Shown piece by piece: positions 25,082 to 54,530 of a stretch of 64,000 nucleotides of DNA (its first letter is position 1; every line of letters starts with the position of its first letter). The notes below the pieces were generated by a model. It had not been told where the DNA came from. It did no database searches and was given only the letters and a program-made list of their open reading frames with translations. Source of the stretch: Massospora cicadina (lineage: Eukaryota; Entomophthoromycota; Entomophthoromycetes; Entomophthorales; Entomophthoraceae); NCBI GenBank assembly GCA_022478985.1, contig JAKSZP010009286.1, positions 147,627 through 211,626 of the forward strand, written 5' to 3'. Position numbers and translations under genes: made by a program.

Positions 25082-27035
25082 CTATTAAATGAGGTAAGCC
25101 AACCAAGAGGACTGACATTACCAAACTAAAATTAAAACAAAAATTAACTTTACTAATTGAATCAAAAAAACGCCCAAATGAGCGGATTAAATGAAACACA
25201 CCAACCAAACAACCAGCCAGGTGGGGAGCGAATACTGCTATCTCTCCATGGTGGAAGGGGAGGGGGGATCAGGGGGCTTATCTTTGGCAGCAGCTTCCTC
25301 ATCCCAGAGTAGGTATGTGTTAAGGCAGATAGCAAGGGCTTTGGGGAATTGGCGACATGTGGTTTGATATCTCTTAGATGGTACTTATAAGAAATTGTCA
25401 ACTTTGAAAATGGCAGTGATATATTTGGCTAAAGCTTTTTTGGCTTTAATGCAGGCGTCTGGTAGTTTAACAAACGTGGCAGTAATGGTTCAGCTAATCT
25501 TAGCTTTCTGATTCCGTGCTACAGTTACCACGTTCTGGATAGTGTCATTGACAATTTTGTGCAATTGATTAATATCAATCCTACTTTTTTTAGTAAGATT
25601 TACGGGGATAACAGGAGGTAGAATTCCTCCTGTGAGTATCGCCACTAATTTGGTGGCAGCTTTGCGAAGGAGATGACAATCTGATTTGGCAGCTGCTTCT
25701 ACTGCAAGCTGGTGGTTGCTGTAGAATGATTCAGCATTTGGCTGTGGGGCATATAAACAAGGGGGGAATTCTTCATCCCATTCTACACTAAAGAACTGGT
25801 TGACTTGCAGAGATGGCTCTTCAATGTAATTACCTGATTTTTTAATTTCATCCAATAACTCCCATGGGTTCTGGTTGAATTGAATTGGGGAATTGGCTTA
25901 TGGTTGAGGATTGGTTGATTCTTTGGAGGATGCACGGGATCAAACTAGGGCCCCATCCTGTGCTTGATTGGGTGGAGCTTTTGTGGCACTTGGGCGAGGA
26001 GGAGGCTGATTGGTGGCTGCAGGTGCAGCTGCAGCAACAGGCTTTGGGGGAGGGGGAGGTAGGATCGTACCCCATGCCAGAACTGGTGCAGGGTGGGTGG
26101 TAGATTGGGGGTCAGCGGGCGAAAAATCCAATCCGTTGGAAGTAACTATGGAGGAGTACTTGCATTTTGAGTGGTCCAACTCAAAACAGGATGGGCAGAT
26201 CGTCTGTAAACCCTCGACGTGGGCCCAAAATGGATGGTCAGGGGCAGGTGGAATGATGAAGTGAGGGGGAATCAAAGCAGCAATTTTACTAAATTCAGGG
26301 CTGATTGTGGCATATGCCCGAGGCCAGCGAGGCGTGTGGCCCCATTTGGGACCACAAATTGCAAGATGGGGTTGGAGCCATAGGCTGCTAAACTGTCCAT
26401 CAGCTCCTGGTGGAGCACCACAGGGGGGAGGTGGGTGGGCAAACCATAAACTGGACCATCAAAGTGGTGTCTTCTGGGAGCCAAGTCTGAATTGTGGGAA
26501 GAGGGGTATTCTGGAATACCAGGGCACAGTTGCCGCAATGGCGGCGTTGGCTTCACAGGTGAAGCCAAGGTCAAAATACCCCTTTATATGGGCGGAAATC
26601 AGTAAAACTGGTGGGAATTATCACCACCTGTGTCATTTCAATAATGGCTTGGTCATGGTATGGGAAGAGTTTCTATAGTTGACCCTTAAGCTGTAGCACA
26701 TGTTGCTCTGGGGGAGCACCATAGGCAGCGAAGTACTACTTGGATATGAGCAAGGTGGGCATCGAGATCCTTGGGAAGCACAAATCATCCCAGGGGTTTG
26801 GTATGACTGTGCGAGCCAGTCTGAGCACGTTTTCCTGCCAGACAGAAAATGGTGAGGGGTTTTTGCCGCTGCCCCATACTGGAGCAGCCATCAGAGAATC
26901 CGAGGGCATTGGAGTGAAACTACAGCGGGTGATTGAAATTACTTTCTTGTTTTCCATATAAGTTGCTCATAAAGTTACACCGATTGTAAAGAGGTTTTAA
27001 TAGCAATCACACTTGTTTAACAGAGTATAAACGCT
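25082..27035 (-). mobile_element. ORF1-only non-LTR element, copy B
   Basis: Flanked by AAGGTATCATATAGTT (25066-25081) and AAGGTATCATACATTT (27036-27051), a 14/16 match taken as a target duplication. The matching repeat at 56280-56400 shows the flanks joined. On the minus strand the 5' core starts near 26994 (CTCTTTACAATC), the ORF follows, and the 3' end (TTTGGTAATGTC ... TTACCTCA) is at 25090-25125. No RT or endonuclease is present. About 40 extra bases lie beyond the 5' core. Confidence 0.75.
25142..26957 (-). pseudogene. ORF1-like zinc-finger protein of copy B
   Basis: Minus-strand frames share one protein: an N-terminal region with QENVLRLARTVIPNPWD, a FPYHDQAIIEM...RPYKGYFDLGFTCEA domain (about 26560-26690), a HLPPVVLHQELMDSLAAYG block, a C-rich CPSCFELDHSKC (CX2CX4HX2C) near 26185, a Pro/Ala-rich hinge, then FNQNPWELLDEIKKSG and a helix-rich C-terminus (HQLAVEAAAKSDCHLLRKAA). 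The ordering domain, paired LPT strands and zinc knuckle parallels LINE-1 ORF1 (GYFIYVGFTEAAL, FSNLPTTVDPESL). Role inferred as RNA binding. The C-terminal half has no counterpart that I recognise. Confidence 0.65.
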
Positions 27036-27051
27036 AAGGTATCATACATTT

Positions 27052-27180
27052 AGACAAGATACTATTAGTGTTATTACAATAAGGAAGACAACCAACAGAG
27101 AGATTGGTCAAACAAAAATTGCTATTAAGGAATTTGGGGAACTATACAAATTTAAGCCAAATAAATGAAAAACTACCATC
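27052..27180 (+). other. Dispersed repeat, right half
   Basis: Continues the repeat interrupted by copy B: the AACCAACAGAGAGATTGGTC and AAACAAAAATTGCTA blocks match 56341-56372. No coding signal. Confidence 0.5.
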
Positions 27181-27529
27181 AAAGGTAGTCCATACCATGA
27201 GCAGGTAGAAACCTGAGACTTAAAATTGAGATGAATATTACCTGTATTATTAATATGCTATCTTAGAAACAAACAAACGATCATTACTGATAAAATGTAA
27301 TGAACTATCCCCATCTACAACATATAGTGTGATTCTTTATGACATTGATGTAATGGCGCAAACCTCTTCACGTGACTTCTTAGAACCAACCTGGGCCTGC
27401 CAGGTCTGCACCTAGCGTAGATCTAAGGTATAAAAGAGATCAGCAAGGGCAGCCAACTAGTTCCTTTGGCTTTTTCACGTCCTCCCTGTTTCTTCAATTT
27501 ACTCCACAATCAGGTCATGAGTCGTGACA
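27181..27529 (-). repeat. 3' LTR of Gypsy-D (left boundary uncertain)
   Basis: On the minus strand a purine tract (CCAGAGGGTAA) at 27530-27540 is followed by TGTCACGACTCATGACC, an LTR start. I cannot place the far end because no partner LTR was recognised; 27181 is a guess. Confidence 0.45.
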
Positions 27530-27540
27530 TTACCCTCTGG

Positions 27541-29103
27541 ATTTTGAGGAACCTTCCTCCTCCAATGAACTCAGCAAGAAAAAGTTTTATAAGCCAGATG
27601 TAACTTCATGGCAACAATGGTTGGATTATTCTTAGGACCAGAAGCCACAGGGAACTTCCTATGGAATGCGTTAATCAAGTCTTAGGCATGGCTGAAATTG
27701 TGAGCTGGAACACAGCTTTTTTCTGCGCATCAAACCCCTTTCTATGTATCAGGTATTCCAGATTTTTATCTAAACGCCTAGAGGCCACAATACTCTCAAC
27801 TTCTCACCCTGGTTACCCATTCATAAAGTATAACTCTGGGTTTACTAGAAGGGGTCCCTCAAATTGGTCAATTTACTCTCATGGAATGTAGAAAAGATGG
27901 GAACTTTGATGGCAAATCCTCCTAGTAAGAAGCATGACCAACCTTTTTTAAATATGTGATAAGGACCTATTCTCTTTGGCCTCAGTTCCCTTCATTTTTT
28001 ATGGGGCTATTCCTGGAATCAAGAATCGCCAGAACTCCTCCTTACACTCTGGCTCAAACCTTCTCTTACCATCAGCTTTCTCCTTATAAGTCTTCATAGA
28101 TGCTTCCAAATTGGTATTTACCTCTTGATTTTCGAAAGGAACTTAAAAAGCCCACCTCATCTTTTACCTTAAATCCACACCTGGGTTCCAGGTTAAATAT
28201 GGATTATAACCATAATTGGCAAAGAAAGGAGAACACCCAATAGATAGATGTTGGGCGTTGTTATAGCTAAATTCTTCTAAAAGCAGGTGGGAAGCCCAAT
28301 CTGAGTAGTCAGAAGCTTTGTAGCACCTTAAGAACAGTCTAAGGCATTAGTTCAATCATTTTGTTGCTCATCAAATTGAGCATGAAAGGCACTTGAATTG
28401 CAAGGGCTTATCTGGTTAGTCTTTCACAACTCTTCCAAAAATAGAGATATGAACTTGGGTCCACAGTCACTAATAATCTCCTGGGGAACCCCAAGAGCTG
28501 AGAAAGCGTGGGAACAAAATGTTTAGCCATCTGGGCCGCCGTAATTGTGGTATGACATGGGATGAAGTGGCTGAACTTGTTGAAAAGTTCCAAAACCACA
28601 TTAATAGCATCATGTCCCTTAGATAAGTGTAACTCCACAATAACATCCATGATAGGGAAGTCCAGGACCCTTATGCTTTCTGGACAGGTACCAATAAGCA
28701 TTAGGGGCTGACGATCTGGTTTCATCCTGTTGCAAACAAGGCACTCCTTTCCATAATGTGAAACCTATGCAGAAATTCCTTCCAGTTGTATGTACAGCAT
28801 TTAGGCTCTATGTTTTCGCCTTCCCAGAATAGTTATGGTTGTTCCGTCATGACGCTCCTTGATTATCTCCTGGCAAAGAGGTCCAGCGGGAACCCATATG
28901 TGTCTCTGGAACCATACCATATCGATTCTTAAATGTTATCCCTTCATAAAGTCTTCCTGGTTCAAGTTTCCCTTCATAAAAATTGTTATGTATTCTAAAG
29001 ACAAAGACTGACAAAAAGACATGTATGAACGTAATATACTCTTCCAGGTTCTCCAAGGAAGTGAGACCAGCAGCAGCAAGGTTTATAGGTTGCTTATTTG
29101 ACA
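27541..29103 (-). pseudogene. Gypsy-D integrase, chromodomain and upstream spacer
   Basis: On the minus strand: spacer ending near 28850, an H2C2 remnant with MKPDRQPL (28725), core blocks VIVELHLSKGHDAINVVLEL and KFSHFIPCHTTITAAQMAKH (28480-28640), a degraded second-Asp block (LVTVDPSSYLY), barrel fragments, and a chromodomain end DLINAFHRKFPVASG near 27620. The core resembles Gypsy-C integrase closely. Frames shift many times. Part of RNase H between this segment and 30425 is missing. Confidence 0.7.
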
Positions 29104-30440
29104 TAATAGTATATTTTTTGATATACGCTGATCAGGGGATGGACATTACCAATAGTCAATGAGCAAAAGAACCAAACAAATGAATGAACAGAACAAAAAA
29201 TAAAGCAAAATTTCCAACCAGATGGGGAGCGGAATACCACTAACCCAACATGACAGAGGTTGAAGAGGGGTTGGGCGTCTCTTCTACAGGAATATTGTTC
29301 ATGACAGAATCATTATGGTTGTAGAAGCGGACAAAAGCAGAGACAGGGCGTTGAGGCATCAGCATGGTGGGGGTGAATGGCTGTGAAAAATGGGTTTTTT
29401 CTTTAAGATCAGCTTGGAAAACAGCTTCAACTAATTCTGCTAGATTGTGTTCAGCTTGTAGGTGGGTATCGGGGATTTAGTCAACTTGGTTATGTTCTGC
29501 TGTGTGATTTTAGCAGATGGGTCAAAATCTGCTAGTTTCACAACATGCATGACATCATTTTTGGAATCATAAAACAATTTGGTCATTTTTCCCTGTGCTA
29601 CTTCAGGGAAATCAGGGGGAAGATGAGTGTGGTCAGCCTTTTATAAAATTGAGCCATAGATTAGGCCACTGCTTTGCGGAGGACTGAGCAATGGGGTGAG
29701 GCCACCACTGGTAAGGCGAGCTGGTAGTCACTTTCTGTAGGGGACGGCATTGGATTTAGGAGTGAATCTTTTGGGGGATAGGGTTTTGTCAAAATCAGAA
29801 TTGTAAAATTTGGCTATTTATAATCCATCATGTTGAGGGGTTCACTGGGTTTCTTATTCGTGATAAAATTATCTGATTCGTCAACCTTAGCCCATAGGTC
29901 CCAAGGATTCTAGTCACAAGAATAGTGGATGTAGAATTGTGGTGGGTAGTAGTTAAATGGGTTTCTTGGGCGAAAATGGTGGTCTAAGCCTGACTCTGAT
30001 TGGCAGAGTTGAATTTGGGTGGTTTAATGTGGGTGGACGATTTGGTGGGGGCTGATTTATCATTCTGGCCCATTGAGTAAGAATGTTGGGTAATTGACAT
30101 AATCTTAAAATGAAGAATTACCAATTGCATGTTAGGGAGCTCCACATCTTTGGGGTCAGTATCCAATATTGCATTTTGACTTATGGCATCGCCAACCCAT
30201 TCTCCTTGCCTTTTGTAAACTCATAAGAAAACACAAATTTTGCAAGGTTCTCATACCACTGAGCTTGGCGTGGAGTCAGGACATGATGGGCGTGGTATAA
30301 AAACAATGCGCAATGATCTATATGAACATATAATGCTGTGAAGAGCTATGTAAATGATGGCGCTAATAAGGTAATGATCTCACTACTACCAGTAATATCT
30401 TAAATAGAATGTATAGTTTAACTCTAATAGTAACTTTTTT
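29104..30440 (-). mobile_element. ORF1-only element, copy D, 5'-truncated
   Basis: Minus-strand sequence from about 30230 to 29125 matches the C-terminal half of the copy B protein (NPWDLWAKVDESDNF, a YQLALPVVA region, then an APHLVG end) and ends with the family 3' tail (TTGGTAATGTCCATCCCCTG, about 29130-29150). The 5' half is absent. TAATAGTATATTTTTT (29104-29119) and TAATAGTAACTTTTTT (30425-30440) could be a 14/16 duplication, but Gypsy-D coding sequence is missing across the junction, so a deletion accompanied or followed the insertion. Confidence 0.55.
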
Positions 30441-32459: not shown

Positions 32460-33080
32460 TGTTGCCTGCGTTTGTTTTTTTCTTTAATTGAGGTAAGCCA
32501 ACCAGGGGACAGACATTACCAAACTAGAACTAAAAATATAATAAACTAAAATATTGATTCAAATGAAAACCCCAAAATGGACAGATTTATTGAATTGTAC
32601 ATAACAAAATATCCAACCAGGTGGGCAGCGAATACTGCTATCCCTCCATGGTGGATGAGGAGGGGGGATCGGGGGCTCATCTTTGGCCACATCCATCTCA
32701 TTCCAGAGTAGGGTGCGTGTTAAGGCAGATAGTAAGGGTGTGGGGGCATCGGCGGTATGGGGTTTGATATCCTTGATGACTGGAACTTCCAAATAGTTGC
32801 CAGCCATCATTATACCAGCGATGTATTTGCCCAAAGCGTCTTCAGCTTTGAGGTGGACATCTGGGAATTTAACAAACGTGGCAATGTTGGTTCAGGTTAT
32901 TTTTGCTTTCAGATTCTGTGCTACTGTTACCACGTTCTGGATTGCTTCAGTGAAGTTTTTGTGTAAAGTTTTCATGTTGATCTTAAAACTTTTCTCTCTT
33001 GTTGCAATCACTTTTGCAACTTATTCAATTCAAGTCTTAATCTAGTTTGATAATCTCACAGAGGAGATTAGTCTGCGCCC

Positions 33081-34270
33081 ATGTCAGGGAGCAGTTGGGC
33101 AAGTAAGGTAAGAGGCACAGGTGGTAGGCCCGCGACCTCCAACATTCGAAAATGCCCCAGAGAAACTGGTGGAATAGAAAAAAGTAAAAAACTGGCGGTC
33201 ACTATTTCCCCAGAAATCCTCACTTGGCAGGCGCGATGTAACCAGTACATCAACACGCCACACTCTCAAACACTCTTGTCAGTGGAATATGGAGTCTGGG
33301 TGTTTCTGGATATCCAACAAACAGCTTTATGGGAAAAGTATTTGTGGGGATGTGCACACTATTTCCTGACCGTGGTGTACATCGCACCTCACTTCATGTC
33401 ACGTGGTTGGCTGGACCTTGGTTTCAAAAATAAGGAGGCAGCAGACAAAGCTGCTGTGGTGCGCATAGTGATTGACCTCCCCGAAGGGCAACAGGTCGCT
33501 GAAGCCAAACGCACCAGATGGACAAAATCCAACCAAATTTTCCTCACATTCAACTTTTTGCCCACTACAGTCAAGCGTGCCGCTCTGGAGCAGCACCTGA
33601 AAGATGGTCTCACCATATACAGTGAAATACAATCCTTTGAGATGCAACGCTTTACACTGATGCCACACCTGTGCACCGGCAAAGCCATTGCAGTTCTGAC
33701 TACAACTGAGGAGATCGCAATGGACCTAACCTAAATCCCACACTCCACTTATATCAATATTGAAGGGCATACCACCCACCCTTTCTGGGTAACTGTAGAC
33801 AGCGCACCCCCCCATCTTCACCCACTGTGACGCGTTTGGCCATAAGGCACATGCATGCCCCACCAAGGAGGGCATCACATTCCAAGAGCACCCCTCAGCG
33901 GCCATGGCCAGCGAGAGGTGCACTATGAACCAACCACCAGCACCAAAGAGGCTTTCCCATGGGGAGCACAAGGCTGCTACTCACTAGTAAAGCCTATCTC
34001 CCCTCAAGAGCGAAAGAAGGCCAAACAGGCCTGCAGGGCTATAGCCAAGGAAGCGGCCAATGTCGCCTCTGCTATCCCACACTCAAATGCCAGGAGGACA
34101 TCGAAACCTTTGCTTGGAAGCAACTTGGGAATCCCTCAACCAATCAGATTGGGAAGCCCATGCCAATTGGGCCACCCAGTCTGAGGATCTGATGGGTGAC
34201 TCGATCTCACCTAATCGTTGCACCCAAGCTCCAGTCTAAACTGACTTGGGACCCATCCTACCTTAATAAA
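33081..34270 (+). pseudogene. LINE-2 ORF1
   Basis: ATG at 33081 gives a 217-codon frame to 33734 with GWLDLGFKNKEAADKAAVVR, IVIDLPEGQQV and FLTFNFLPTTVKRAALEQHL: the same paired-strand domain as in LINE-1 ORF1 and the ORF1-only proteins. After a stop, a shifted frame at about 33820-33865 has HCDAFGHKAHACP, a CCHC knuckle whose first Cys is lost. The protein would coat element RNA. The frame decays after 34200; the family length is about 620 residues or more in LINE-1. Confidence 0.7.
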
Positions 34271-34499
34271 AAAATTTTGACCCAAACGTTGGTGCACTGA
34301 ACTCATCTGCACCACAAAAAATTCGTTCAACGTTAGGGAAACAAAAAAGTGAAGGCAAAAGCCAACGTGAACCTGTCTGCTAAAATTAACAAAAATACCA
34401 ATAGCATTGCTGCAAACACCTGTGCTGCCATGAAGGCCCGTGGGGATCCAGAGAAGGCTGGTGGGCCCAGGTGCCCACCCCCTTGCACCTAAGGTGTGG

Positions 34500-35410
34500 A
34501 GGGGAAGCCTTCACTTTAGGGATGTTAAATATCTCCAGACTCAAGGCCTTGCCGTCCTGGGCTAGGAAACTAAGTTTTTTACAAAAAATTTACCTGTGGA
34601 CATCCTGGCCATCCAGGAGTCTCACTGTCTGAGAGGTTCTGAGGACACTTGGAAAACCATGCTCCTCCCTTCCCTATCCTTCTGGTCTGAGCACTGTGGG
34701 GTGCTTGTTCAGAAAAACAATTTTCTTAAATTTTTATCATCTGAATCCTTCCTTAATAACTGAGTCCTTGTTGTCACATTTTTGTGGGCCGACGTGGTGC
34801 ACGCTATCATCAACATTTATGCCCCAACCTGTGCATTAGAGCGTCAGGAATTTTTTTCAGCAGTCAAATCCATTACATTACCCCCTGACCCCTTCATAGT
34901 TGGCAAAATGAACTGTTGGCTAAACTCACCCATGGACCGTTGGCCTTCCTCATCCCACGCCCCCCAGGGTCATGTAGAACTTCGCGTTCTAAAGGCCACC
35001 CTTGGGTTATTAGACGCGCTGCCACAGCAAGCCCCACTGCTCAAAAACATGATGTGCCCCCACATCCACAACGCCAATTAAGGTCCATGACCCGCATCAA
35101 CCTTATCCTCACACCAGCAAAATTTCAATCTCAAATTTCCCACTTCCAAACAACAAAAATCAAATTCTACAACCACCGGCTGGTCTTAATAACCTACCAC
35201 TTACCTGTCACAGTGGCTAAGGCCCCGCATTGGTGCAAACTCCACCCACCCAAACTTGCGTCTCCAGGATTTTCCTTTTGGGTGGAATCAGCGACTTTGG
35301 TAAAAGAGTTTATTACACCATTTTTTGTGGACCCATTTTCCACATGGTCAGCCTTCAAAGAGGATACCATCCGCCACACTCGCCACCTCTCCTCCCAACG
35401 CTCATGAGCT
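34500..35410 (+). pseudogene. LINE-2 APE-type endonuclease
   Basis: VDILAIQESHCLRG (about 34595-34636) has the catalytic Glu of the QES/QET motif; an EHCGVLVQKNNFLKF block, VVHAIINIYAPT and a VGKMNCWLN block follow, the last in place of Gly-Asp-Phe-Asn, so Asp is lost. At about 34760 a TGA stands where Arg is expected (CGA to TGA). The expected Ser-Asp-His end near 35150 is not readable. The domain nicks target DNA in target-primed reverse transcription. Confidence 0.7.
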
Positions 35411-35651
35411 ACATCAGCTGTCATCTTGCGCGCTCTGGCAGAGTTGGCACACCTGGAGTCCAACATCCCAGCCACAGGCTACAGCCCTGCTTGGGGCCAG
35501 AAGTGGGCAGAAGCAGCTGCCCACCTCAACGCGCTCAAAAGGCAACACAAACATCAGGTTTATGTTCAGTACAGGGCCAAACATATTACAGAGGGCGGCA
35601 CGTACACTGCATATTTTTTAAAAAATTCTTCGCACCACGCCAGAGCATGAC

Positions 35652-37300
35652 CTGCACACAGGTGCAGAGATCGGATGAATCTGTTGCGGATATGCTGGCC
35701 AAAGTGGCAATCAATATACAAAAGTATTACTCCAAGTTGTACCAATCTGATCCAATTCAGCCAGCCAAAGTGGTGAAATTTCTCGACAGCACTCACATCT
35801 GCACCGTTTCCCAATACCCAGAATTAATGGATTTGATTACTCTTAAGGAACTCTGGTCAGCCATCCACGGTGCACCAAATCGGAAATTCCTAGGCCCAGA
35901 TGGCATTCCAAATGAATTCTATATTAAGCACTTCAAATATATATCCTCACTGCTGCTTGCCTCCCTTAACCAGAGCCTTCTGGAAACGCGCCTTCTTAAG
36001 GAGGGCAAGAGGCCTTCACCATCAAAGTCTTCAAGAAAGGGGATAAGCTAGACCTAGCCAACTGGTGCCCCATTCTTTAACTAACACGGATACAAAATTT
36101 TTTTTCTAAAATCATGGCTAACCGTTTAGCAGTTGTATCATCTGCCACCATCTCCCCAGAACAATTCAGTTTCATACCCAGAAGGTCGATTGGGGACAAC
36201 GTGCACTCTGTGGCTAATGCATGCCAGTCCACAGCCTCTGGGGCACTTGTATTTTTGGACCAACAGAAGGCCTATGATAGAGCAAACTGGAAATACCTCA
36301 GGGCCTGCCCCATGAGTTCCAATTGCCCCCTTGCTTCATCAACTGGGTAATGCTGCTCAGGGAATCTGCAACAATGGCAGTGCGTGGCCCTGGCTTCCTA
36401 ACGGAAGTAGTCCGCCCTCAAAGGGGTCTACGCCGAGGGGACCCCCTCAGCCCACTCTTATACAACTTCAGCCTTGACCCACTACTTCGAAACGTGAATG
36501 CCCACCTAATTGGGGTACATGTACCAGGCCAAGCCCCAGTCAATATGATGGCGTTTGCAGATGACTGTGTGGTTGGGGTGTCTAATAATCAAGATGCACG
36601 CGCTCTTAAAGCTCTCATCCAGGAGTATTCCTGGGTAAGTAATGTTGCACTGAACGCTTCAAAAACCGAAATCACCCTCCTTGGTCGGTATCAAACCTGC
36701 TGGGCCCCAGCGACCAATGCCCAGCCTGGCCCATCTTCTCACACATGTGCTCGCCTTCCCTGCTCACCCCACACCGCCCCACTGGTGCTCCCCTTCGTGC
36801 CACGCCCTACCATAGGGCCTGTCCGCCATCTGGGCGTGTGGGTGGAGGCAGGCGGGTATACCTCAGCAGTAATGGAAAGTCATATTCTCTATAATGTTAC
36901 GAATCATATCGCCTCCCTCAGAGCCCACCCTACTTCCCTTACTGGCAGGGTTTTTTTAGCCAACTCTATGCTCCTCTCCAAAGTCTGGTTTGGAGTCCAC
37001 GCCATCCCCTTCTTGCCAAGCTTCTTCAAATCCTTGTATGCTCTACGGCAAGGATGGCTTTGGTCAGGCCGCCCTCCACCAGTACGTCTAGAGGTCATGT
37101 TTGGCTTTCATCATCATGGTGGCATGGGTCTGCTCGACTTCAGAGCCCATGCTGCCAAGATCTTGGGTACCTGGATTGCGGCTGTCACTGCCCCTACGCT
37201 CCCCTCCCAACACTGGTCCCGCTCGGCCTGCTCCAACTTCATCTGCGCCTTATGCCTCAACAATCCATTGAACCCTCACTCCCTGATGAAGTACCTGGCT
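35652..37300 (+). pseudogene. LINE-2 reverse transcriptase
   Basis: A 35652-36051 segment has FLGPDGIPNEFYIKHFKYIS, the entry motif. After stops, 36114-36310 shows SPEQFSFIPRRSIGDNVHSV and VFLDQQKAYDRANWKYL. A frameshift leads into the 440-codon open frame 36323-37645 with RGLRRGDPLSPLLYNFSLDP and MAFADDCVVGV (Phe-Ala-Asp-Asp at 36554-36565, intact), then a RHLGVWVEAGG thumb region and FGFHHHGGMGLLDF. Confidence 0.88.
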
Positions 37301-38180
37301 TCACACCCATCGGCCACAGGTCCTCACGGGACTAAAGCCCACTACAAACGAATCCTCCTCTCCATTCGGAGTGCTGAGTGGAGAATTCGTATTAGCAGAC
37401 ACACAGCCCAGAGAGGCCGCCCCTCTCCTCAGTTCACACAGGAGGTACAGGGGTTACCCATTCAAGATGGCGTGATCCCCACACGGCCCCATGTCCTATC
37501 CAGGGTGGACTACCTGGACATGATGGACATCCCTTATTCCATTGAGACAGAAGACTATTTGAAATTATGCACACCATCCTCTGTTGCAGCCTCAAATCCG
37601 CTCCCATGTGTGGCGCTGCCTGAGGCGGGTGTACCGTATGGCTGAGCGCTCTAATGCTTTACACTCATCCTGTGTCGTGTGTGGCCAGTATGGAACGCTG
37701 TTCCACCGCCTGGAGAAGAGCCCCACCTCTAAAGTGATATGGCGCGAAGTCCAACGTCTGCTTGGCCAGGATCAAACACATCCCTTCATCCTGTCAAGAG
37801 ATATGTTTGCTTTATCAATGGCCTCCCCCTTTTAACCTCCCTCCGTGCTCTGGTGGTTGCAATCGCCATGTGGACCATCCACACGATTGTCTTAGATGCC
37901 ATCTCAGGCTCCACCCCCACCCTCCCAGAAGCTGTCCAAAGATTCCAGTCTCAATTGGTGGACCACTTTCAGGCGTGGATGTTTGGGTACCTCCCACCAC
38001 GTCACCGTCAGCTGGTCTCCTCCTGGTTCCCAGTCTGGTTCATCAAATCAGACCCCTTCCTCCACACTGTTCAATTGTGGCTATGGCCCCTTCACACGTT
38101 CCCTCCCCCTCCTCATAAGTGGCGTTCCCGCTGGCAACAAGATATCATCGCTTCTCTGGGGTGCCTTCCCTGTTACTAAG
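37301..38180 (+). pseudogene. LINE-2 ORF2 C-terminal zinc-binding region
   Basis: A frame from about 37584 (SHVWRCLRRVYRMAERSNAL, SSCVVCGQYGTLFHRLEKSP) has a Cys-x-x-Cys ... His cluster as in the RT-associated zinc-binding (zf-RVT) domain. A shifted frame has LRALVVAIAMWTIHTIVLDA, parallel to LRVLAYATAIWTIHNSFLRA in LINE-1. It ends at a stop near 38180, followed by the 3' UTR. Confidence 0.7.
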
Positions 38181-42474: not shown

Positions 42475-43945
42475 TCATTGTCTTTTAGCGCAACTCCTTA
42501 TTTGGTTGGTGAGAACGCTTAGGTGACGGAAGGTACCGCGCACAGGTTCAATACCAAATGGTGGAGGGAAGGTGGGGGAGCCAACCTGTACAACTGTTGT
42601 CTTGGAGGTGTTGGCCATGGCGTTGGACGCCTTGGTGTACCTCTCAATGGTCACAGCAGCGAGGGCAACATCCCCAGTGCAGCCAAATGCAATGGCAGTG
42701 TCATCTGCAAATGCCATAATGCGTGTGGGGGCTTTTCCTGGGACCAGAATCCCTGTTAGCTTGTCCTGTAAGGAGGCCAAGAGGGGGTTAAGGGTGATGT
42801 TAAAAAGGATAGGGCTCAGGGGGTCCCCTTGCCAGAGACCTTGTCCAACTGGTACTGCCACTGTAAAACCCATTGGCGCCAGGACTCTGGTGTGGAGCTG
42901 GTCATAGAGCGCTGATATCCAGCGCCTAGCTGCGGGGGGGAGATGGAAGCAGGCCAGGGAAGCATCAATATACTTCCAGGCTACCCGATCATATGCTTTC
43001 TCCATATCCAGGAGAGCCACAAATCCATTCACCTTACAAGAGTTAGCAGTCAAAGTCACGTGAAGGTCATTATAGTTGTCCCATAACGACCTCCCCGGAA
43101 TAAAACCATGCTGGAATGGGGAGAGGCGAGGTGACACCCATTTGGTGATGCGGTTGTCCAGAAGCTTCGTGAAGAGCTTGTGGTCTGTGTTGATCAACGC
43201 TATGGGGCGCCAGTTCGCCAGGTTCTCACGGTCTGACTTCTTGTGAATGAGGGTCGTGATTGAGCCTCTGGAGTCAGGGAGGACCTCGCCATTCACCAAT
43301 AGTGCAGCGAATAGGTCGCGGAGGGTTCTGGCTATCACTGCAGGTTCCAGAAGGTACACCTTGAAGGATATTCCGTCTGGGCCTGGGGCTTTAAGCTGTG
43401 GGGATTTCAGAAGGGTTTCCATCACTTCCTGGATGAAAATAGGCGCCAGTAGAGCCTCATCAGCCCGTGGGTCAATGGGCGGCTCTGGAGCCCGCCACAG
43501 GAAGACTTGGATGTCCGATGGGTCCACCTGGGTGGCATGGAAGAGGCTGAAGTAGAAGCGGTGTAGTTCCTGCGTGATTTCCTCCTTATCCGAAGTGGTT
43601 ATAGTGCCAATCTTCAGTGCAGTAATATCCTGCGCTGTTGACCGGGCTTTCTGTTTCTGAAAGAAGAAGCGGGTGGGGCGTTCCCATTGAGCATAGTAAC
43701 GAGATGTTGTAAAGTTTGCTTCCCGTTCTTCCTGCAGTGTGAGCTCCAAACGGAGTGCTTCCTGCGCCGCTTCCCAGTCTTCCAACCATCTGGGAGAGGG
43801 CGAAGGCTGGCAGTTTCGCTCCAGATGTCTGATTCTGGCTTCCGCCCTTTTGATTTTGGCGCGAGCTGCAGTCATCTGGGCTTTGGCACAGTTGTAAGCA
43901 ACGCAGGTGATGCCCTCCTTGGTCACCGCCCATCTAGCCTTGTGG
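42475..43945 (-). pseudogene. LINE-1 reverse transcriptase
   Basis: A 483-codon open frame (43926-42475). Linker with KAQMTAARAKIKRAEARIRH coiled coil, then LKAPGPDGISFKVYLLEP, NLANWRPIALINTDHKLFTK, LSPFQHGFIPGRSLWDNYND, VALLDMEKAYDRVAWKYIDA, GLWQGDPLSPILFNITLNPL and MAFADDTAIAFG (Phe-Ala-Asp-Asp at 42700-42711). All seven RT blocks are intact. It is joined to the endonuclease by a one-base shift in a C-rich run near 43945, and to the C-terminus by one extra A in AAAA near 42487. Confidence 0.93.
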
Positions 43946-44777
43946 TCAAGCAGGTGGGGTGGGGGAGGTGAGAGTCTCCCGGATGGTCATAGACAGCTTC
44001 TCCTTAGTGAAGGGGTTGTTGAGAAGAGCTGGGGCAACCCTAGGCCAGAACCTACGCGATAGTCTAAGTGTGGTGGTGAGGACAACGGTGAGTGACCTGT
44101 GATCACTCAGATGGTTGTCACGAGAGATGGGAGAGGAGACGCGGCCAATTAGCAGGGGGCCAATCAGTGCCATATCTATGCGCGACGCTGACTGGAAAGC
44201 TCCTCCATGATACTGGATCCTAGTCATGCAACCTAGGCCAGACGCAGAGGGTGGAAGCGCATCTATAAAGCCACTCAGGCGAAGGAAATCCTGGAGGCGA
44301 CTTGATCCAGGGCTTTCCTTTGCTGCAGGGGGTAAGAGTCACGGACGCGACTTATGTTGTGTTGAAATCTCCTAAGAGGACTGTATTCCGTGGGAGATTG
44401 AGTTGGACGAGCTCTTCCAAGAGCCGATTTTGCTCCTGACCTGCATTAGGCAGGTAGATGCTTGCAGCGAAGAAGGAGAAGTCAGGAGTGGTGAGTTTGG
44501 CCAGTATGAGGTGGCCACCTAGATATTGTGAAAAAGAATGGGTTTCAACCTGGGGATTCAAAACAATAAGGGCGGCATGGTTTGTCCAGAAGGAGTTGCC
44601 TCCAAACTGTTCATTCCATGCAGATTGTTCGTGGGGGAGGATATGGGACTCCTGGACAGCAGCGATGTCAATTTGTGCTGACCTGAAGTTGCGGAGGAGG
44701 CGGGCTCTCCGCTTAAAGTCCCGCAACCCATTTACATTGATGGATTGCAGGGCCAGGGTGCTGCCATGGGGACTCAT
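43946..44777 (-). pseudogene. LINE-1 APE-type endonuclease (start of ORF2)
   Basis: ATG at 44777: LALQSINVNGLRDFKRRARL (Asn-Val-Asn-Gly-Leu motif), DIAAVQESHILPH (catalytic Glu), an ASIYLPNAG strand and VLLGDFNTT (Asp, Asn) before a stop at 44352. After about two frameshifts, RLQDFLRLSGFIDALP and, in 44227-43946, MTRIQYHGGAFQSASRIDMA and HLSDHRSLTVVL (catalytic Asp-His) follow. All catalytic motifs are present, spread over three frames. It would nick the target; the 16-bp duplications here are its signature. Confidence 0.85.
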
Positions 44778-44814
44778 AGATGTTCCCCTCCATGTCCTGG
44801 GGGGTTGCCAGCGC

Positions 44815-47158
44815 TTAAACCTGCTGCTGTGAGGCGGCTAGTTTTGAGTCCTTTAGCTTGACTATTAGCTGCAATCCGTGAGGAGCATCGAGGGTTCTGA
44901 GGGGAAGGAGAGGATGGGGGGCGAAGGACCCAGTAAGCCAGCCTAGGATACTGCCCCCACTCCGTTGCAGGGGAAGGACCTGAGGGTGCTCAATGGTGAC
45001 CTCCGCGGTGTCCCCATTTGATGAGTCTGAGTCCATATTCACTTCCTCCAACACTGCAAAGGATCTGCGTGAAATGGACTGTGGGGTTGGGGTAGGACTC
45101 TTTGAGGTGGCACTTATACCGCAGGCCGCGGGTTGCCAGTTCATGCTGGTGGGCATAGCTCCATTGAGAGCTAAGGGTTGATGTGATAAATCGCTGGTGG
45201 AGGTTGGTGGGGTGCCGCGGAGCCCTGAGTGGGGGTGGCTGACGAGGGGCACCCTGTGGGAGATGCCTTACGCTTGGTGAGAGAGGGAGTTGACTCTGGG
45301 AGATTGGAGGGGGTGCCCACTGGAAGGGGGGCATGAGCGTGAAGGTATCTCATACCAATAGTGGGGTACGCTGTTTCAACTGCTAGGTGTAAGGCCTCAG
45401 GGGACAGGTCTTGAACGGGAACCCATTGTATGGGTTGTGAAATTGCTGCTGCGGCCACGTGGGATCGTTTTTGGCCTGGTTTAGGCCCCTGGGTGGTGGC
45501 TAAGAGGGCTTGTTTTCGAGCTGTGCAGCCACTATACAAGTGTCCAAGGGTGTTACACCATGAACACCGGGGGCGCACCTGATCAGGGTCGACAAAAAAG
45601 ATCTCAGGGCATGCCCCAACTACCGCCACATGTGGAATAACCTCAATGTTGCGGGATACAGTGGGGGAGGGGATTAACGACGCCCTAGCAGTGTGAGCTC
45701 TTTGAGTGGGAGCATAGTAAGAGGGGACGCTAAAGTCCACTGAAAGAAAAGACCTGAACTCCATTAAACCACGATGGAGCGCCAGTTTAAGAGACTCAGG
45801 ATCAACAGTCGTTGGTAGGTTGGAAAATGTAACCCATGAAATTTTCTCCAGGTGAGAGCGTGTGCGGGAGATGTGAAGAGATCCACGCGGAATAATGACC
45901 TGGAGGGTGGCAGCATGGTCAGCAAGGGCAGCTTCGGTGAAGCCCACATAGATGAAGTAGCCCTCCACTGATTCATAGATGGTGGTGTTAATTGGGAATG
46001 TCTCCGCAATCGCTGCAAAGTATGAGAAGTAATCCTCCGTATAGAATTCAACAGGATTATGCTCATAATAAAGGCAAATTGCGTGGGAGAGGGTTGAGCA
46101 AGGTAGAGCTTTTTGCGCTCTAGTTTCAGCCCATTTCTTCTTAACATCAGCAATAAGCGCCACTTCACGGGGATCAGCTTTGGGTAGCGTTGGTGCCAGA
46201 GGTTTTTGCCACGCCCCAGTGGCTCCTTTGGTACGTTTGTGTTTGCTTTGGGCTGCAATTGTGGGTTGAGTGTGAGCTGATGTTTTGGACAAGTTTGCGG
46301 ATTTCCCTTGTTGCTGGAATGTTACAGCAGTTGCTGGCATCATATTAAATTGAGGGGCGGATTTTTGGGCCTTGCTAAATTGGGGAGGCCTATCCAGATT
46401 GGAATTAACTCCAGCCAATTGGGAGGAGGGTGATGCTTCATCACCATCCCAATCTATTTGGGTAAATTCAGCCCGAGTATTTGCTGTGATTTCGTGGGAA
46501 AAACTCATTGGCTGATTGGTGAATTGGTCATTTTCAGCATATGGAGAAAAAGTGCCGACTTGAGAAGTGCCATTTACGGGGTTTAAATGGGACGGGTGAG
46601 ATTGGAACTGGTGTGAAGTTCCGAAATCCGAACCATTTGAATCCTCATTGGGAAGAGTAGATTGTCCCAATTTGGTGCTTAGTGAACCAGAATGTGCGGC
46701 TAATCCAACCTTACATCTGAGGGTTTGGGGGCCAGGTAGCTGGGTATCGCCCCTCATGGAGGGAGCCAGAAACATGGCGTCAGCAATTATAGATGGGGCT
46801 GAATTAGCTGACACAATGGGGGAGGTGAATGCCTGGATGGTCTGAGTTGCATTCAACTGAGCAGACGCCATTAAAACAGCGTGGGTGATGGCCTCCTTGG
46901 TTGGAGTGAGCCCAGCGGGTTGGTGGGAGGCAGCGCACACAGAGCTGTTAGGCGTGCAGGTTGCAGAAGTGCGATCAGGTGAACTGGCGCTAGTTGAAGT
47001 AGCTCCAGGATGGGGGGCGGTGCCTGCTTTCATGGCCGCTGCTTGTGAGTGGGTGATTCTGGTTGACCCTGAGGTGGGTAACCGAGAATTGCTTCGTTTG
47101 TGGTGGTGCTGGCTCGTTTGGCAGAGCCTGCGGGTTCTTTTGCGGGGTTTCCCTCCAT
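44815..47158 (-). pseudogene. LINE-1 ORF1 (zinc-knuckle RNA-binding protein)
   Basis: The open frame is 47033-45171 (620 codons). An earlier ATG at 47158 (MEGNPAKEPAGSAKRAST) runs 43 codons and ends at a TGA overlapping the ATG at 47033, so a single shift may separate the true start. The N-terminal 300 residues are Ser/Thr/Gln-rich; then EGYFIYVGFTEAALADHAAT, LHISRTRSHLEKISWVTFSN and LPTTVDPESLKLAL form the conserved domain, and CSWCNTLGHLYSGC (about 45560) is an intact CX2CX4HX4C knuckle. After 45171 a shifted frame to 44815 with an acidic VLEEVNMDSDSSNGD tract is probably the C-terminus. Function inferred: RNA coat of the element particle. Confidence 0.8.
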
Positions 47159-47362
47159 ATTTGCTAATAGTTTTCGTAAATCTCTTTAGTGGAGCTAAAT
47201 TTCAGGCTGAATTGATTTTCGAAAAGTGATGCTTAGCAGAAAGAGAGAGTCAATTTAACTTTGTTCAAGTATCAGTGCCTCTGGCATTTGGGCTTGCCAT
47301 ATGGGTTTTTGGGCATCCTGACTGGAAAGTTGGTCTAAATTTAACTCGCCGCTTCTCTGAAA

Positions 47363-47779
47363 TAATCAACCGTCCAATTATTTTCAGCAATTTCCACCCT
47401 TTTCGTTGAGATGGGCGCCACAGTGGTTACCATCTTCCTTATGAGTATTCATTCAGTAGTCTGCCTTTGGTGGATTGTTTGGTTAATTGCCAATTTTATA
47501 AGCTGTTCTCAGATGGCTTTGGAGGAATTGATTCATGGTCAACTTCCTCCATTACCCTATACTTCTTACTCTACCCCTCAAAATGGGATTATATTGAGTA
47601 ATTTGCCAACTTATCCTTAGTTTCTGTTCCTGATGTTGAATTAGTATCCATATTAGACCCAGGTCAGACGCTGCCCATGCAGCTGAGCCAATGTGCTTAG
47701 GTTCACCTTTCTTTGCAATCTCTTTAGTGTCTGCAGAAATGACTGCATTCGCTAAAAAACAAAACTCCACCTACTTTTA
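47363..47779 (+). other. Gypsy-E leader, gag missing
   Basis: Only about 420 bp separate the 5' LTR from the protease, too short for a gag gene, and no capsid or zinc-knuckle motif is seen. An internal deletion or a gag-less non-autonomous form would explain it. Confidence 0.55.
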
Positions 47780-51188: not shown

Positions 51189-52333
51189 TGTTGAAGTCTG
51201 GAGGAGCGTCCCCTCCATTTGGAGCAGGTGGCCTTCCCGTTTCCATCAAAAAGGTTTTTTAAGGCCAGCTTCCCTCTCGTAACTCAGGGTGACCTTGCCC
51301 ATATGGTGGATAAGCAATGGGTAACAGCTTGCCCTTTAAGGATCCCGCCACCAGTCACCATATTAACTTCAAATAAATTAATACAACAAATCAAGTGTAT
51401 ATGTGCCAAGCTTTTAGATAGTCGGCATTATCTTGGGATGAAGGATTAAACAAAATTGAGGGCAACAAGCCTTCAGCATCAAAGCCTGAGAGCCCCAGAC
51501 CCACTGAAAAAAAGACCAATGGGCGTGCAGAACAAATAATGAAGTTACCAAATGTCGAATTGTTGACAAAACTCGATGGCATCAGGCCATTATGAATTTC
51601 AGCTCACAGTTCAGAGCGTGCCTCAGACACACCAAAATCATTACCTAATAATTTTTCTTGGCCAAATGGATGTCAGAGCAACCAAGTGTGGGCGGGTTGG
51701 GTATCCTAAACCCATTCCCAACCTTGTGGGATCACCTATATGGGGTGGCCATGGGAGGTTCCCATGGCCCAATGGCCAAGATGCCATTGATCCAGTCATC
51801 TAAATCAAAGAAAATTTGCAATTTGGGCATCTGAGGTCAAACTGACTGCGACTCAGCCTGACACCAACAATTTCAAAGTTGGTCAATTTACTTGGTTACC
51901 GTCTAAATCAATTTTCGTCATGTTAGGAATATTCTTGAAAGCACCAATCCCAAGTTTTGCTAATCTATTCACCAAATTCAATCGTCTATTTAAGCCTTCA
52001 TAGCACACTGAGAAAATTGACAGTTGATTTTCTATTTTACATTCCAATAAAATGTTATGTTCCAATTTTTTTCCAATAATAGAATTCAAACCCCCATTTC
52101 AATCTCCTTCTTTTTGACACCAAAACCCACGGGCCCTGGACCTGTAATAGCCTGGTTTGTTGCTGGGTACCTATTTACATTTATGACTTATTAGCGCTCA
52201 CTGGTGGAATCTCTTCCAGCTCAATTTAACGTTATTCAAGCATCAGTTCCTCTGGCATTTGGGCTTGCCATCTGGGTGTTTGGGCATCCAGACTGGCAGG
52301 CTGGTCTAAACTTAGCTTGCCACTTCCCTGACA
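51189..52333 (+). repeat. 3' LTR of Gypsy-E
   Basis: Begins TGTTGAAGTCTGGAGGAG, ends CTTCCCTGACA, followed by TACCC. It shows the uninterrupted sites of both LINE insertions that split the 5' LTR. Confidence 0.9.
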
Positions 52334-52338
52334 TACCC

Positions 52339-52611
52339 TAGGAGGCATCTGCACTAACCATACCACCAGGTAAGTGGTTTAACTTAAAGTAGCCAATTAA
52401 GTCCTAGTCAATAAAATTAAAAAAAAGTCCCATTATCCATCAAAATAGTTGCTATGAATTTCCCCAAAGGGGAGGAAAGAGTAGCAGAAAGTATAAAAAG
52501 CTAGAATAATCTATATTGATAACAGATAGAGCCAACAGCTCACCAATAGCTTTCTCCTTAGACTTAACATGCCCCAGGATAGGGTTTCCCATCAAAGAAT
52601 GGTAAAGGTAT
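52339..52611 (+). other. Unassigned sequence
   Basis: AT-rich, no coding signal; lies between Gypsy-E and ORF1-only copy C. Confidence 0.4.
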
Positions 52612-54530
52612 CTTTTCCACTTGGCGTAACTTTACAAGCAAATCTTATGGAAAAAAGAATTAAATCTCAATTGCCCACCGTAGTCTCACTCTAATGTCCT
52701 CAGATTCCCCGCCGTCTGCCTAGTGTGTGGCAGCAGCAGTGAAACTCCCCTACTGTTTTCCATCCAACAAGAAAACGTGCTCAGACTGGCTCGCCCAGTT
52801 ATACCAAACACTGGGATGATATATTCCTCTCAAGGATCTTGACTCCCACCTTGCTCATACCCAAGTGGTGCCTCGTTGCTCACTGGTGTACCCCCAGAGC
52901 AACATGTGTTTTGGCTTAGGGGAGAATATGGTAAACTTTTCTCTTACCATGACCAAGCCATTATCAAAATGGCTCAGGCAGTGATGACTTTCGCCAGTTT
53001 TATTGACTTCCTCCCCTATAAGGAGTATTTTGATCTTATCTTCACCTGTGAAGCTGACATCGCCACTGCAGCAACTGTGCCCCTGGTTTTCCATGGTACC
53101 CCTATCCCCCACAATTTAGACCCAGCTCGCAGAAGATACCACTTTGGTGATTCAGTTCTCTGGTTTGTCCACCCACCTTCCCCTGAGGTGCTCCACCAGG
53201 AGCTGTTGGATGCTTTGGCAGCCTATGGCTCCAACCCCATCATATAATTTGTTGTCCCAAATGGGGCCACATGCCTCGATGGGCCTTGGGCATAAGCCAC
53301 AATAATCACTTAATTTAATAAAATTGCCTTGTCAATTCCCCCTCACAACGTCATCACCTCTGCCCCTGACCATCTTTTTTGGGCCCGCTTCAAGGGCGGG
53401 CGGAAGATCTTCTCATCCAGTTTCAAGTTGGATCACTCAAAATGTAAGTGCCCATCCTTAGCTGCTTCTGGCGGATCTGATTTTTCGTCCACTGGCTTCC
53501 AATCCGCCGCCCACCCCAAGTCAGCTTTGGTATGAAGTACGATCCTACCTTCCCCTCCCCAAAATCATGTTGCTGCAGCTGCGCCCACAAAAGCCAACCC
53601 GCCTCCTCCTCGACCCAGTGCCACAAAAGCTTCACCCAATCAAGCACCAGATTGAACTCAAGTTCACCCCCATGCGTCCTCTAACAAACCAACCAAACCT
53701 CAGGCATATGCCAACTCCCCAATTCAATTCAACCAAAATCCTTGGGATCTATTGGCTGAAATTGATGAGTCCAGAAATATTGTTGAAGACTGAACTATCC
53801 AACTTAAGCAGTTTGTGTATGCTAACCATGACGCTGTGCTACCCCCTCATTTATAAGCCCCCAGCAAAATGCTAAAATGTTCTGCGGTGACCACTAGTTG
53901 GCTGTTAAAGCAATGGCTAAGCCAGATTGTCATCCCCTCCGCAAAGCTGCCGCCAAATCTGTGGTGATGCTTGCAGAAGGAATCCCTCATCCCGTTATCC
54001 CTCCACCACCCATACGCTCCAAAAAATATGTTGATTGAATCTCACAAAGCTGCCAATGAAGCCATCCAGCATGTGGCAGTGGTAGCATGAAATCCCAAAT
54101 ACAAGTTTACCCGCACCAATATTGCTATGTTTGTAAAGCTCCATGGTGCACGCATGAAAGCCAAAACAGCTTTGCTAATTATATTAGCTCTCTTATATTC
54201 AACCGCTGTCTTTCTGCCTCTCAATCATTGGAAATTTCTCTCCACATCCCACTGATGTCCCAACGCCCCTGCTCTTTGCCATAGTCTGTGCTCTGCTTTG
54301 GGGTGAAGCAGAGGCCGAGGATGAGCCCCCTGATCCCCCCTCCCCTTCCGCCATGATGAGGGGTAAGTGGTTCCCACTGTCCAACCTGGTTGTTTGTGGT
54401 CGCGTTTTGTGTGTCTCGCTGCTCCTTTTAAGTGGTTCGTTTGTTTTGTTTGGTGATAATTTATTTGTTAGCTTTTCAAGTTTTGGTAATTTCCATCACC
54501 TGGTATGCTTACCTCAGTTAAATAAATAAA
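52612..54530 (+). mobile_element. ORF1-only non-LTR element, copy C
   Basis: Starts near CTTTTCCACTTGGCGTAAC and ends with the family tail (TTTTGGTAATTTCCATCACC ... TTACCTCA, 54480-54517) plus TTAAATAAATAAA. Length 1919 bp, matching copy A. The longest frame (52876-53247) gives PPEQHVFWLRGEYGKLFSYH, DQAIIKMAQAVMTF and VLHQELLDALAAYGSNPII. A zinc region near 53420 (SSSFKLDHSKC) has lost its first Cys residues. Later frames match the copy B C-terminus. AATGGTAAAGGTAT (52599-52612) and AATAGTGAAAGTAG (54533-54546) may be a decayed duplication. Confidence 0.75.

Follow-up and report, generated by a model that had tools for sequence, protein, structure and literature searches.

The genome of Massospora cicadina (1.47 Gb) contains a large dispersed family of non-LTR elements of ~1.92 kb whose progenitors coded for a single ORF1-type protein. 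These ORF1-coding, non-autonomous retroposons are probably mobilized in trans by a LINE which ends in the same 3' tail, and they are best read as a variant of the kind represented by HAL1 and HeT-A. What is new is that the stem-loop forming the 3' tail is borne by LINEs as well, giving a protein-coding hitch-hiker a likely helper that can be named. The family accounts for one component of a fungal genome which has been reported to consist of 92% transposable elements (PMC9584336).

Four members lie in the window, the stretch of 64,000 nucleotides that was analyzed. Copy A (32476-39680, minus strand) is interrupted by LINE-2, an autonomous-type LINE with ORF1, endonuclease (EN) and reverse transcriptase (RT) (32986-38249, plus strand), which sits between 16-bp duplications (38250-38265 within the 5' part of A). 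The 3' part of copy A (32476-32985, minus) holds the C-terminal region, 3'UTR and tail, and the 5' part (38250-39680, minus) holds the 5'UTR, the ORF1-like region and the knuckle. A perfect 16-bp target duplication flanks the whole (32460-32475 and 39681-39696). Copy B (25082-27035, minus) is full length, with a 5' end that extends ~38 nt beyond the majority sequence of its subfamily (26998-27035, minus), and its target duplication (25066-25081 and 27036-27051) matches at 14 of 16 positions. An unfilled paralogous target site matching both B flanks is present at 56215-56371 (plus). The ORF1-like frame of B (25241-26890, minus) is degenerate and contains stops, and near 26.4-26.6 kb the homologous reading shifts to another frame. 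Its CCHC knuckle (26156-26197, minus) reads CPSCFELDHSKCKY, in which the last Cys is lost; the majority reads CPSCFELDHSKCKC. Copy C (52612-54530, plus) is full length and no clear target duplication was found around it, while copy D (~29103-29914, minus) is 5'-truncated and much diverged. Copies A, B and C align at 72-77% mutual identity over most of their length, and the four copies and two duplications described in the earlier note were all confirmed. A separate LINE, LINE-1 (41181-47250, minus), carries ORF1 (45171-47201, minus), EN (44352-44837, minus) and RT (42475-43986, minus).

A search of the genome's contigs, a check which the earlier note had proposed, showed that the family to which A, B and C belong is large and dispersed. 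By-eye counts among the best 40 scored genome places, window copy included, gave matches of at least 1.8 kb in 35 for the B query and 37 for the C query; the query from the 5' part of A (1.42 kb) was covered over 1.3 kb or more in all 40 of its best scored places. Both ends could be placed in 58 of 60 fetched copies (L024 and L032 were left out of the length and duplication counts), and in these 58 the span from 5' start to tail is 1,876-1,948 bp (median 1,917 bp, IQR 1,911-1,921), which is too short for an ORF2 between the ORF1-like gene and the tail. Target duplications of 11-27 bp, called at a score of 11 or more, were found around 42 of the 58 copies compared with 6 of 464 mismatched flank pairs, so the copies do not stem from one duplication event. 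The element is therefore supported as a propagating ORF1-only unit, as had been claimed, and not as a product of chance truncation.

Queries with the LINE-1 RT and EN gave no match below E 0.4 in the three subfamily majorities, whereas the same queries detected both domains in LINE-2 as a positive control. The claimed absence of endonuclease and RT thus holds for the majorities, which lack the two domains of an autonomous LINE. The LINE-like 5' starts were recovered weakly: the first 120 nt exceeded the best of 200 shuffles in four of six comparisons (A and C with LINE-1, A and B with LINE-2) but not in the other two (B with LINE-1, C with LINE-2).

The three majorities have in common a single frame of ~560 codons, which runs from an ORF1p-type region through a CCHC knuckle and a Pro/Ala-rich linker to a C-terminal region of ~230 residues. 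The suggested dN/dS comparison gave 0.28-0.34 between subfamily majorities over about 555 codons, against 0.95-1.37 for the two remaining forward frames; reverse frame 2 gave 0.36-0.46 but contains 22-25 stops. Stop codons number 4-5 among 557-560 in the coding frame versus 19-51 in the other five frames. Moreover, third positions show an excess relative to copy-versus-majority changes (p 7e-4, 1e-3 and 6e-6). Copy-versus-majority pN/pS is 0.52-0.67 and not 1, so mutation spectrum and subfamily structure may give part of the between-subfamily signal. This pattern of coding conservation points to long-term constraint on the frame. None of the 63 aligned copies is intact, the longest open sense stretch being 339 codons; the statement that the elements encode an ORF1-like protein therefore applies to the progenitors and not to the aligned copies. 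Of five stop sites across the majorities, three are former CGA codons (copies show TGA, CAA and some CGA) and one, in the B majority, is a column-vote product over TGG and CAG copies (a former CGG). The stop at 1759 in the C majority is fixed near the end and is probably the true stop of the frame. On these grounds a frame broken in every progenitor was rejected for B and C. C-run lengths also vary among copies at two more sites, in A around position 147 of the B majority (short in 14 copies, long in 7) and in C around 1259 (13 and 8 copies), and neither was taken as fixed.

The 3' tail of the element is a stem-loop (GGUAA...UUACC) which is also found near the 3' end of LINE-3, a young autonomous-type LINE with the order ORF1-ORF2-tail. 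A 32-nt pattern of the element-type tail occurs 3,676 times in the genome and its reversed control not at all. Among the first 12 of the 3,676 exact matches listed, seven belong to LINE-3, three to the element and one to a distant element lineage, and one was not assigned. Since most sampled tails are those of LINE-3, 3,676 was rejected as the element copy number, and the sample leans to young copies because the exact match is present in just 11 of the 60 element copies fetched. For the same reason, its absence from all 20 LINE-2 loci is a weak test. Element and LINE-2 tails have the lower stem in common with two compensatory pair changes, and the kept LINE-2 tails show the other stem pairs in 20 of 20; the hairpin comparison left out 16 of 84 tails which gave no good ungapped 29-nt match. 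In the best fold of the C majority the upper stem is paired differently. The common tail noted earlier is not private to the element, as LINE-3 has the same tail and LINE-2 a covarying version. By its tail the element resembles a SINE, which has its 3' end in common with a LINE.

LINE-3 is known from short pieces (seven of 231 nt and one of 341 nt). In at least 8 contigs, picked out by eye in two lists of 150 matches, its ORF1 and ORF2 matches share a strand and begin 4,057-4,074 nt from each other. We infer from the tail that LINE-3 is the likely helper of the element. LINE-2, whose tail aligns, was initially read as the sole helper, and this was given up when the tail census assigned the element-type tail to LINE-3 itself. 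LINE-1 was rejected as well, its 3' end giving no convincing match (scores of 28-30, where the highest among 200 shuffles were 27-29). A tail common with LINE-3 and covarying in LINE-2 would supply the mobilization mechanism that was missing from the earlier reading.

All 21 examined copies of subfamily A, the youngest of the three, carry a 1-nt frameshift which is absent from the B and C majorities. It is located in a C-run, in an assembly built from Nanopore R9/Illumina reads (PMC9584336). The same run is also short in B and C, in 7 of 21 copies each. With 21 of 21 A copies frameshifted, recent copies have perhaps spread without a full-length protein of their own. Alternatively, subfamily A could be functionally unshifted if ribosomes moved back by a single base at C CCC CC(G/A) and so made the full protein. 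The site formally fits the rule for a -1 slippery heptamer, it is kept in 13 of 21 A copies, and the frame downstream is conserved; however, the heptamer is lost in 8 of 21 and the B and C majorities have no shift, which makes slippage very unlikely. The shift in 21 of 21 copies of the youngest subfamily and the lack of an intact copy among those examined would also suit a SINE-like element that moves by its tail alone, with the ORF as a relic and the protein inactive. This is unlikely in view of the between-subfamily dN/dS, the low stop density in the frame, and the C-terminal part beyond the shift, where A and B compare at a dN/dS of 0.19.

A further alternative concerns the origin of the ORF1. 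The predicted ORF1-type domain with a zinc knuckle and an unfamiliar C-terminus was borne out: in the proposed profile comparison the element matched the ORF1s of LINE-2 (E 5e-8, 150 columns, 23% identity, through the knuckle) and LINE-1 (E 1e-6), which places the region with its CX2CX4HX4C knuckle in the LINE ORF1 family. No Pfam model reached its cut-off on element pieces, no convincing match came from searching solved structures and Pfam with the ORF1-type part and the C-terminal part (best E 0.36 and 0.056), and no relatives of the C-terminal region were detected. In one short shared block, the ORF1s of LINE-1, LINE-2 and LINE-3 (one sequence) are each ~22-29% identical to four element sequences (25-29% for LINE-3), and LINE-3 and LINE-2 are 40-45% identical to each other; P0004 and P0005, which cover no more than 60 residues of the block, were left out of the ORF1 tree. 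A deletion derivative of LINE-2 or LINE-3 is therefore not supported. It is possible, though doubtful, that the element is another LINE minus its ORF2, and that this LINE has the same ORF1 and C-terminal region. HAL1s are reported to have arisen several times from L1 in mammals (PMC5753468). Moreover, the comparison covered three LINE families, one of the 12 sampled tails was not assigned, and copies were scored from the best rows of long candidate lists. Against this stand the low ORF1 identities, the uniform length of 58 of 60 copies, and four further places with long open frames (L081-L084) in which no RT or EN match was found within 3.9-4.1 kb (L081 is complete; L082-L084 lack the 5' end in the fetched span, and L083 and L084 are also interrupted). 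Random truncations or a single duplicated block can be regarded as refuted by the same two ends in 58 copies and the duplications in 42 of them, although L001 and L006 do have flank and duplication sequence in common.

Under mobilization in trans by the tail-sharing LINE, progenitor transcripts would carry the ~560-codon frame for a single protein and would end in the stem-loop found near the LINE-3 3' end. The LINE-3 ORF2 protein would recognize this stem-loop and prime reverse transcription at a nicked target, so that full-length copies arise between duplications of 11-27 bp. The protein of the element may coat its RNA or carry it to the LINE particle, a role that would account for the long selection on the frame, and part of the pool, subfamily A, would spread with a frameshifted gene by relying on the proteins of others. 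More tentatively, and as a reading we would not yet favor, an old ORF1-only lineage with its own C-terminal region, apart from the ORF1s of the three LINEs, may have persisted as several subfamilies by keeping the tail of a LINE from which it does not descend. Parasite and helper would then form a stable system of two parts, the former still supplying a nucleic-acid-binding-type protein and the latter the enzyme, with frameshifted A members exploiting both. The family offers many copies, a named candidate helper and a putative recognition hairpin at the 3' end that can be mapped and that covaries naturally; with coding and frameshifted subfamilies at hand, the need for an own ORF1 protein in cis becomes testable.

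To our knowledge, few non-LTR elements are ORF1-only, namely HAL1 and HeT-A. HAL1 (half-L1) of mammals is described as a non-autonomous element coding for ORF1p only (PMC5753468), and the element's progenitors, judged from the majorities, likewise coded for ORF1 without EN or RT. However, HAL1 is an L1 derivative, whereas the element's ORF1 is unlike those of LINE-1, LINE-2 and LINE-3, and the element has its own C-terminal region and a specific 3' stem-loop. Coming from a fungus, it is also not expected to fall within the mammalian L1 clade. As its ORF1 is not that of the tail-sharing LINE, the parallel drawn earlier is functional rather than genealogical so far. HeT-A of Drosophila is reported to code only for a Gag/ORF1-like protein, with RT coded by TART and TAHRE (PMC3776773). 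The element's progenitors also coded for such a protein without RT, the putative helper being named from the tail; in contrast to HeT-A, which attaches to chromosome ends in head-to-tail arrays, the element is dispersed with target duplications. In UnaL2/ZfL2-type LINEs, including those of zebrafish, the LINE ORF2 protein is described as recognizing a specific 3'-terminal stem-loop, and SINEs as depending on the LINE with the same tail (PMC4176376). The stem-loop common with LINE-3 is similar, but the element, at 1.9 kb and with a protein apparently under long-term constraint, is unlike SINE partners, which are non-coding and well under 1 kb. In Blumeria, LINE ORF1 is reported to have given rise to EKA, a fungal gene family of very large size; its genes are described as degenerate LINE copies that were recruited as effectors, with a truncated ORF1 lacking the nucleic-acid-binding motif (PMC4641428). 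The element differs in keeping the knuckle and in its fixed ends and duplications.

Lineage L090 was considered as the source of P0004-type N-termini and set aside, since by eye the matches are not co-located. Copy D shows protein-level matches to A, B and C and also to L090.

The ~1.92-kb element is a genuine, mobile family of non-autonomous retroposons that code for ORF1. Copies were sought in the 1,469,884,898-base assembly containing the window; the published Massospora cicadina genome is given as 1.488 Gb with 92% transposable elements, from Nanopore R9 and Illumina data (PMC9584336), and a LINE expansion has been reported for this fungus (PMC11105155). With copy B as query, 35 of the best 40 scored places from 12,741 first-look candidates were at least 1.8 kb long, as were 37 of the best 40 from 12,702 candidates with copy C, and the 5' part of copy A found at least 1.3 of its 1.42 kb in 40/40 of the best places from 10,182 candidates (counted by eye, window copies included). 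Twenty copies were fetched for each query (60 in total, L001-L060, biased to close relatives of the query copies), giving subfamilies A, B, and C. Both ends were located in 58 of the 60, with a median length of 1,917 bp (IQR 1,911-1,921, range 1,876-1,948), which bears out the near-constant unit length claimed in the earlier note. Target duplications with a score of at least 11 (11-27 bp) were found in 42 of these 58 copies vs 6 of 464 control pairs built from flanks of different copies. Thus a single shared duplication event, named earlier as the alternative, was not seen; the copies are insertions of one unit, each with its own duplication, except L001 and L006. These two, from separate contigs, share both their flanking and their duplication sequence, a likeness due to a duplicated locus or a repeated target. 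At another locus (L081:4051-4107), 57 nt of the 3' end of LINE-2, the LINE nested in copy A (32986-38249, + strand), adjoin an element copy at its 5' end (element start near 4037-4055), as a nested insertion or a template jump.

In the window, copies A and B (sense strand -) and copy C (sense strand +) have pairwise identities of 72-77%, and copy D is, as claimed, truncated, and also diverged. The 16-bp target duplication of copy A proved perfect and that of copy B 14/16, as first described, and an unfilled paralogous site at 56215-56371 matches both flanks of copy B; no clear target duplication was found for copy C. At 26998-27035, ~38 extra nt separate the usual 5' start of copy B from its target duplication, possibly an upstream start or a template jump. 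The LINE-like 5' starts had a mixed outcome, their weak resemblance to LINE-1 (41181-47250, - strand) and LINE-2 exceeding the best of 200 shuffles in four of six comparisons and failing to do so in the other two.

For the intact ORF1 frame and its dN/dS, the majority sequences of the subfamilies share one frame, which opens with an ATG (B-majority position 91) and extends to about 1780. Among the individual copies examined none was intact, the longest open sense stretch being 339 codons. Between majorities dN/dS is 0.28 (A-B), 0.34 (A-C), and 0.29 (B-C) over 553-556 codons, with 0.95-1.37 for the remaining forward frames; the reverse frames give 0.36-1.50, and the low-scoring one has the same wobble position as the coding frame and contains 22-25 stops. 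Of the differences between subfamilies, 48-54% lie at third codon positions, vs 38-41% when copies are compared with their own majority (p 7e-4, 1e-3, 6e-6). Since pN/pS of copies against their majority is itself 0.52-0.67, selection is read from the contrast and not from the absolute value. In the transposons of this fungus, CpG-type decay is strong on both strands; it is seen in L001-L060 as TGA/CAA where CGA codons once stood and as TGG/CAG in place of a former CGG. In-frame stops fall at 1063 and 1513 in the A majority, at 214, 520, 1063, and 1513 in B, and at 214 and 1759 in C. Positions 214, 1063, and 1513 show TGA, CAA, and some CGA among copies, the mark of decayed CGA; at B 520 most copies have TGG or CAG, which likewise marks a decayed CGG, and column-by-column voting produced the stop. 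The nearly fixed C stop at 1759 probably marks the frame's true end. On these grounds, an open frame is the best reading for the B and C progenitors.

Subfamily A is the youngest of the three, having the lowest divergence from its own majority at non-CpG-type sites (4.8%, vs 9.1% for B and 9.6% for C; LINE-2, 5.0%). In all 21 A sequences, the C-run after ...GLPTHLPP is one base shorter than in the majorities of B and C, so that the reading frame is lost from the knuckle onwards. In this assembly, homopolymer error is a genuine concern, as the same run is short in 7/21 B and 7/21 C copies, but 21/21 is far from one third, and eight A copies whose run was already interrupted by decay are also short, which counts against such error and makes a real frameshift probable. 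A is still conserved downstream of the shift (A-B dN/dS 0.19 beyond position 1060; 0.55 for 581-1060), so the shift would be recent, or bypassed by -1 slippage, or younger than the selection signal. A possible -1 slippage site, C CCC CC(G/A), is kept in 13/21 A copies.

The ORF1-type domain with a zinc knuckle was recovered: profiles built from natural open stretches hit LINE-2 ORF1 with E 5e-8 and 23% identity over 150 columns that extend through the knuckle, LINE-1 ORF1 is matched by the same type of profile (E 1e-6), and the majority knuckle CPSCFELDHSKCKC fits CX2CX4HX4C. The ORF1-type region is presumably an RRM, as in general LINE ORF1 biology. The long C-terminus is as unfamiliar as the earlier note held, its ~230 residues after the knuckle having no convincing match in LINE ORF1 beyond the knuckle, in Pfam (best E 0.099) or in solved structures (best E 0.36). 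Searching ~5.8 billion proteins with the element profile gave six proteins, all named M. cicadina (best 7,998 candidates scored, shared words required); for LINE-1 ORF1, the sole database relative found was an M. cicadina protein that covers 57% of the query at 80% identity (7,993 candidates scored). The predicted M. cicadina protein P0002 (L0F63_007425), in which N-terminal sequence of the element is fused to ORF1 sequence of LINE type, is probably a gene model spanning nested insertions. As claimed, enzyme domains are absent: LINE-1 and LINE-2 RT queries and a LINE-1 EN query had no match in the three majorities (best E 0.42), and the LINE-1 queries did detect both RT (E 5e-64) and EN (E 5e-13) when run on the majority of LINE-2. 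Four places picked for long open frames from 150 scored (L081-L084) also had no RT or EN match.

All three majorities end in TTTGGTAATGTCC.TCCCCTGGTC.GCTTACCTCAGTTAAATAAA. The LINE-2 3' end is related to this tail (alignment scores 54-59 vs maxima of 34-37 in 200 shuffles); the LINE-1 3' end scores 28-30 vs shuffle maxima of 27-29. The LINE-2 tail forms a hairpin almost identical to that of the A and B majority tails, with one extra loop pair closed in LINE-2, and the C majority tail pairs its upper stem differently. Two lower-stem pairs covary between element and LINE-2 (U-A to A-U and A-U to G-C) and are formable in 45/48 and 47/48 element tails and in 20/20 LINE-2 tails. Genome-wide, there are 3,676 matches to the element-type tail pattern and 9,084 to that of LINE-2 type, with none for the reversed controls. 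For the first 12 of the 3,676 listed, 231 nt were read some 400-600 nt upstream: seven held the ORF2 C-terminal region of another LINE, LINE-3, three the element (subfamily A), and one L090, a lineage distantly related to the element's C-terminal region, with one other.

The LINE-3 ORF2 C-terminal region has 50-59% amino-acid identity to LINE-2, and the seven fragments are 88-96% alike. LINE-3 looks young, given 0-5.9% divergence of these fragments from their majority at non-CpG-type sites and the best 150 ORF2 matches, a top-of-list sample 96-100% identical to the reference fragment L086 over 73 residues, 146 of them without stops there. LINE-3 ORF1 was obtained from a 341-nt piece at the expected place. 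In eight contigs (C45, C7269, C11570, C6876, C8246, C1363, C8513, C7320; by eye), its ORF1 and ORF2 matches share a strand and their starts are separated by 4,057-4,074 nt, the distance being 5,975 in C5035; an element-type tail follows ~380 nt past the ORF2 match at C1:638411, C82:11630, and C106:170815. LINE-3 thus has the order ORF1-ORF2-tail, the tail being that of the element. LINE-3 ORF1 has 40-45% identity to LINE-2 ORF1 vs 25-29% to the four element sequences covering the block, and an unrooted tree (11 sequences, ~110 residues, one LINE-3 sequence) splits LINE-2 and LINE-3 from the element and LINE-1 with 93% ultrafast bootstrap. Within the sequences examined, the protein and the tail of the element therefore have different nearest relatives. 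That its ORF1 lineage is independent of the putative helper LINE would be a stronger claim, resting on few LINE-3 letters.

L090 has 31% identity to the C-terminal region over 72 residues of L041 and 26% over 73 of copy B. L090-type copies (at least 150 scored matches, 67-100%) are a separate repeat family; in the one whose tail was seen, part of the C-terminal region lies ~380 nt from the tail, leaving no space for an ORF2 between them. P0004-type sequences (at least 150 scored matches, 63-99%), some within B-type copies (C7084), may be another branch.

Among known systems, HAL1 is described as an L1 derivative coding for ORF1p alone (PMC5753468), and in fish, LINE ORF2 is reported to recognize a 3' stem-loop, with LINE/SINE pairs having a common tail (PMC4176376). 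Accounts from Blumeria describe the EKA genes as a huge ORF1-derived family without the nucleic-acid-binding motif (PMC4641428) and a peptide-coding non-autonomous retrotransposon (PMC6022598). No earlier account of the element was found in the open-access literature on Massospora transposable elements and retrotransposons or on ORF1-only and gag-only elements (best 15 of 418), weak evidence of absence with subscription journals mostly outside.

LINE-1 has an unfilled paralogous target site within 51194-52335, where the overlap of the repeat pieces 41066-41180 and 47250-47364 falls at 52221-52236, which makes both the insertion and the duplication of LINE-1 directly readable. A second LINE-1 3' tail (47 nt, 91%) stands beside it at 41019-41065, and another lone tail of 35 nt occurs at L082; these are very short LINE-1 insertions or tail-only pieces. 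Finally, the open frame at 11809-12303 (+) may be a piece of an LTR-retrotransposon integrase, which it resembles.
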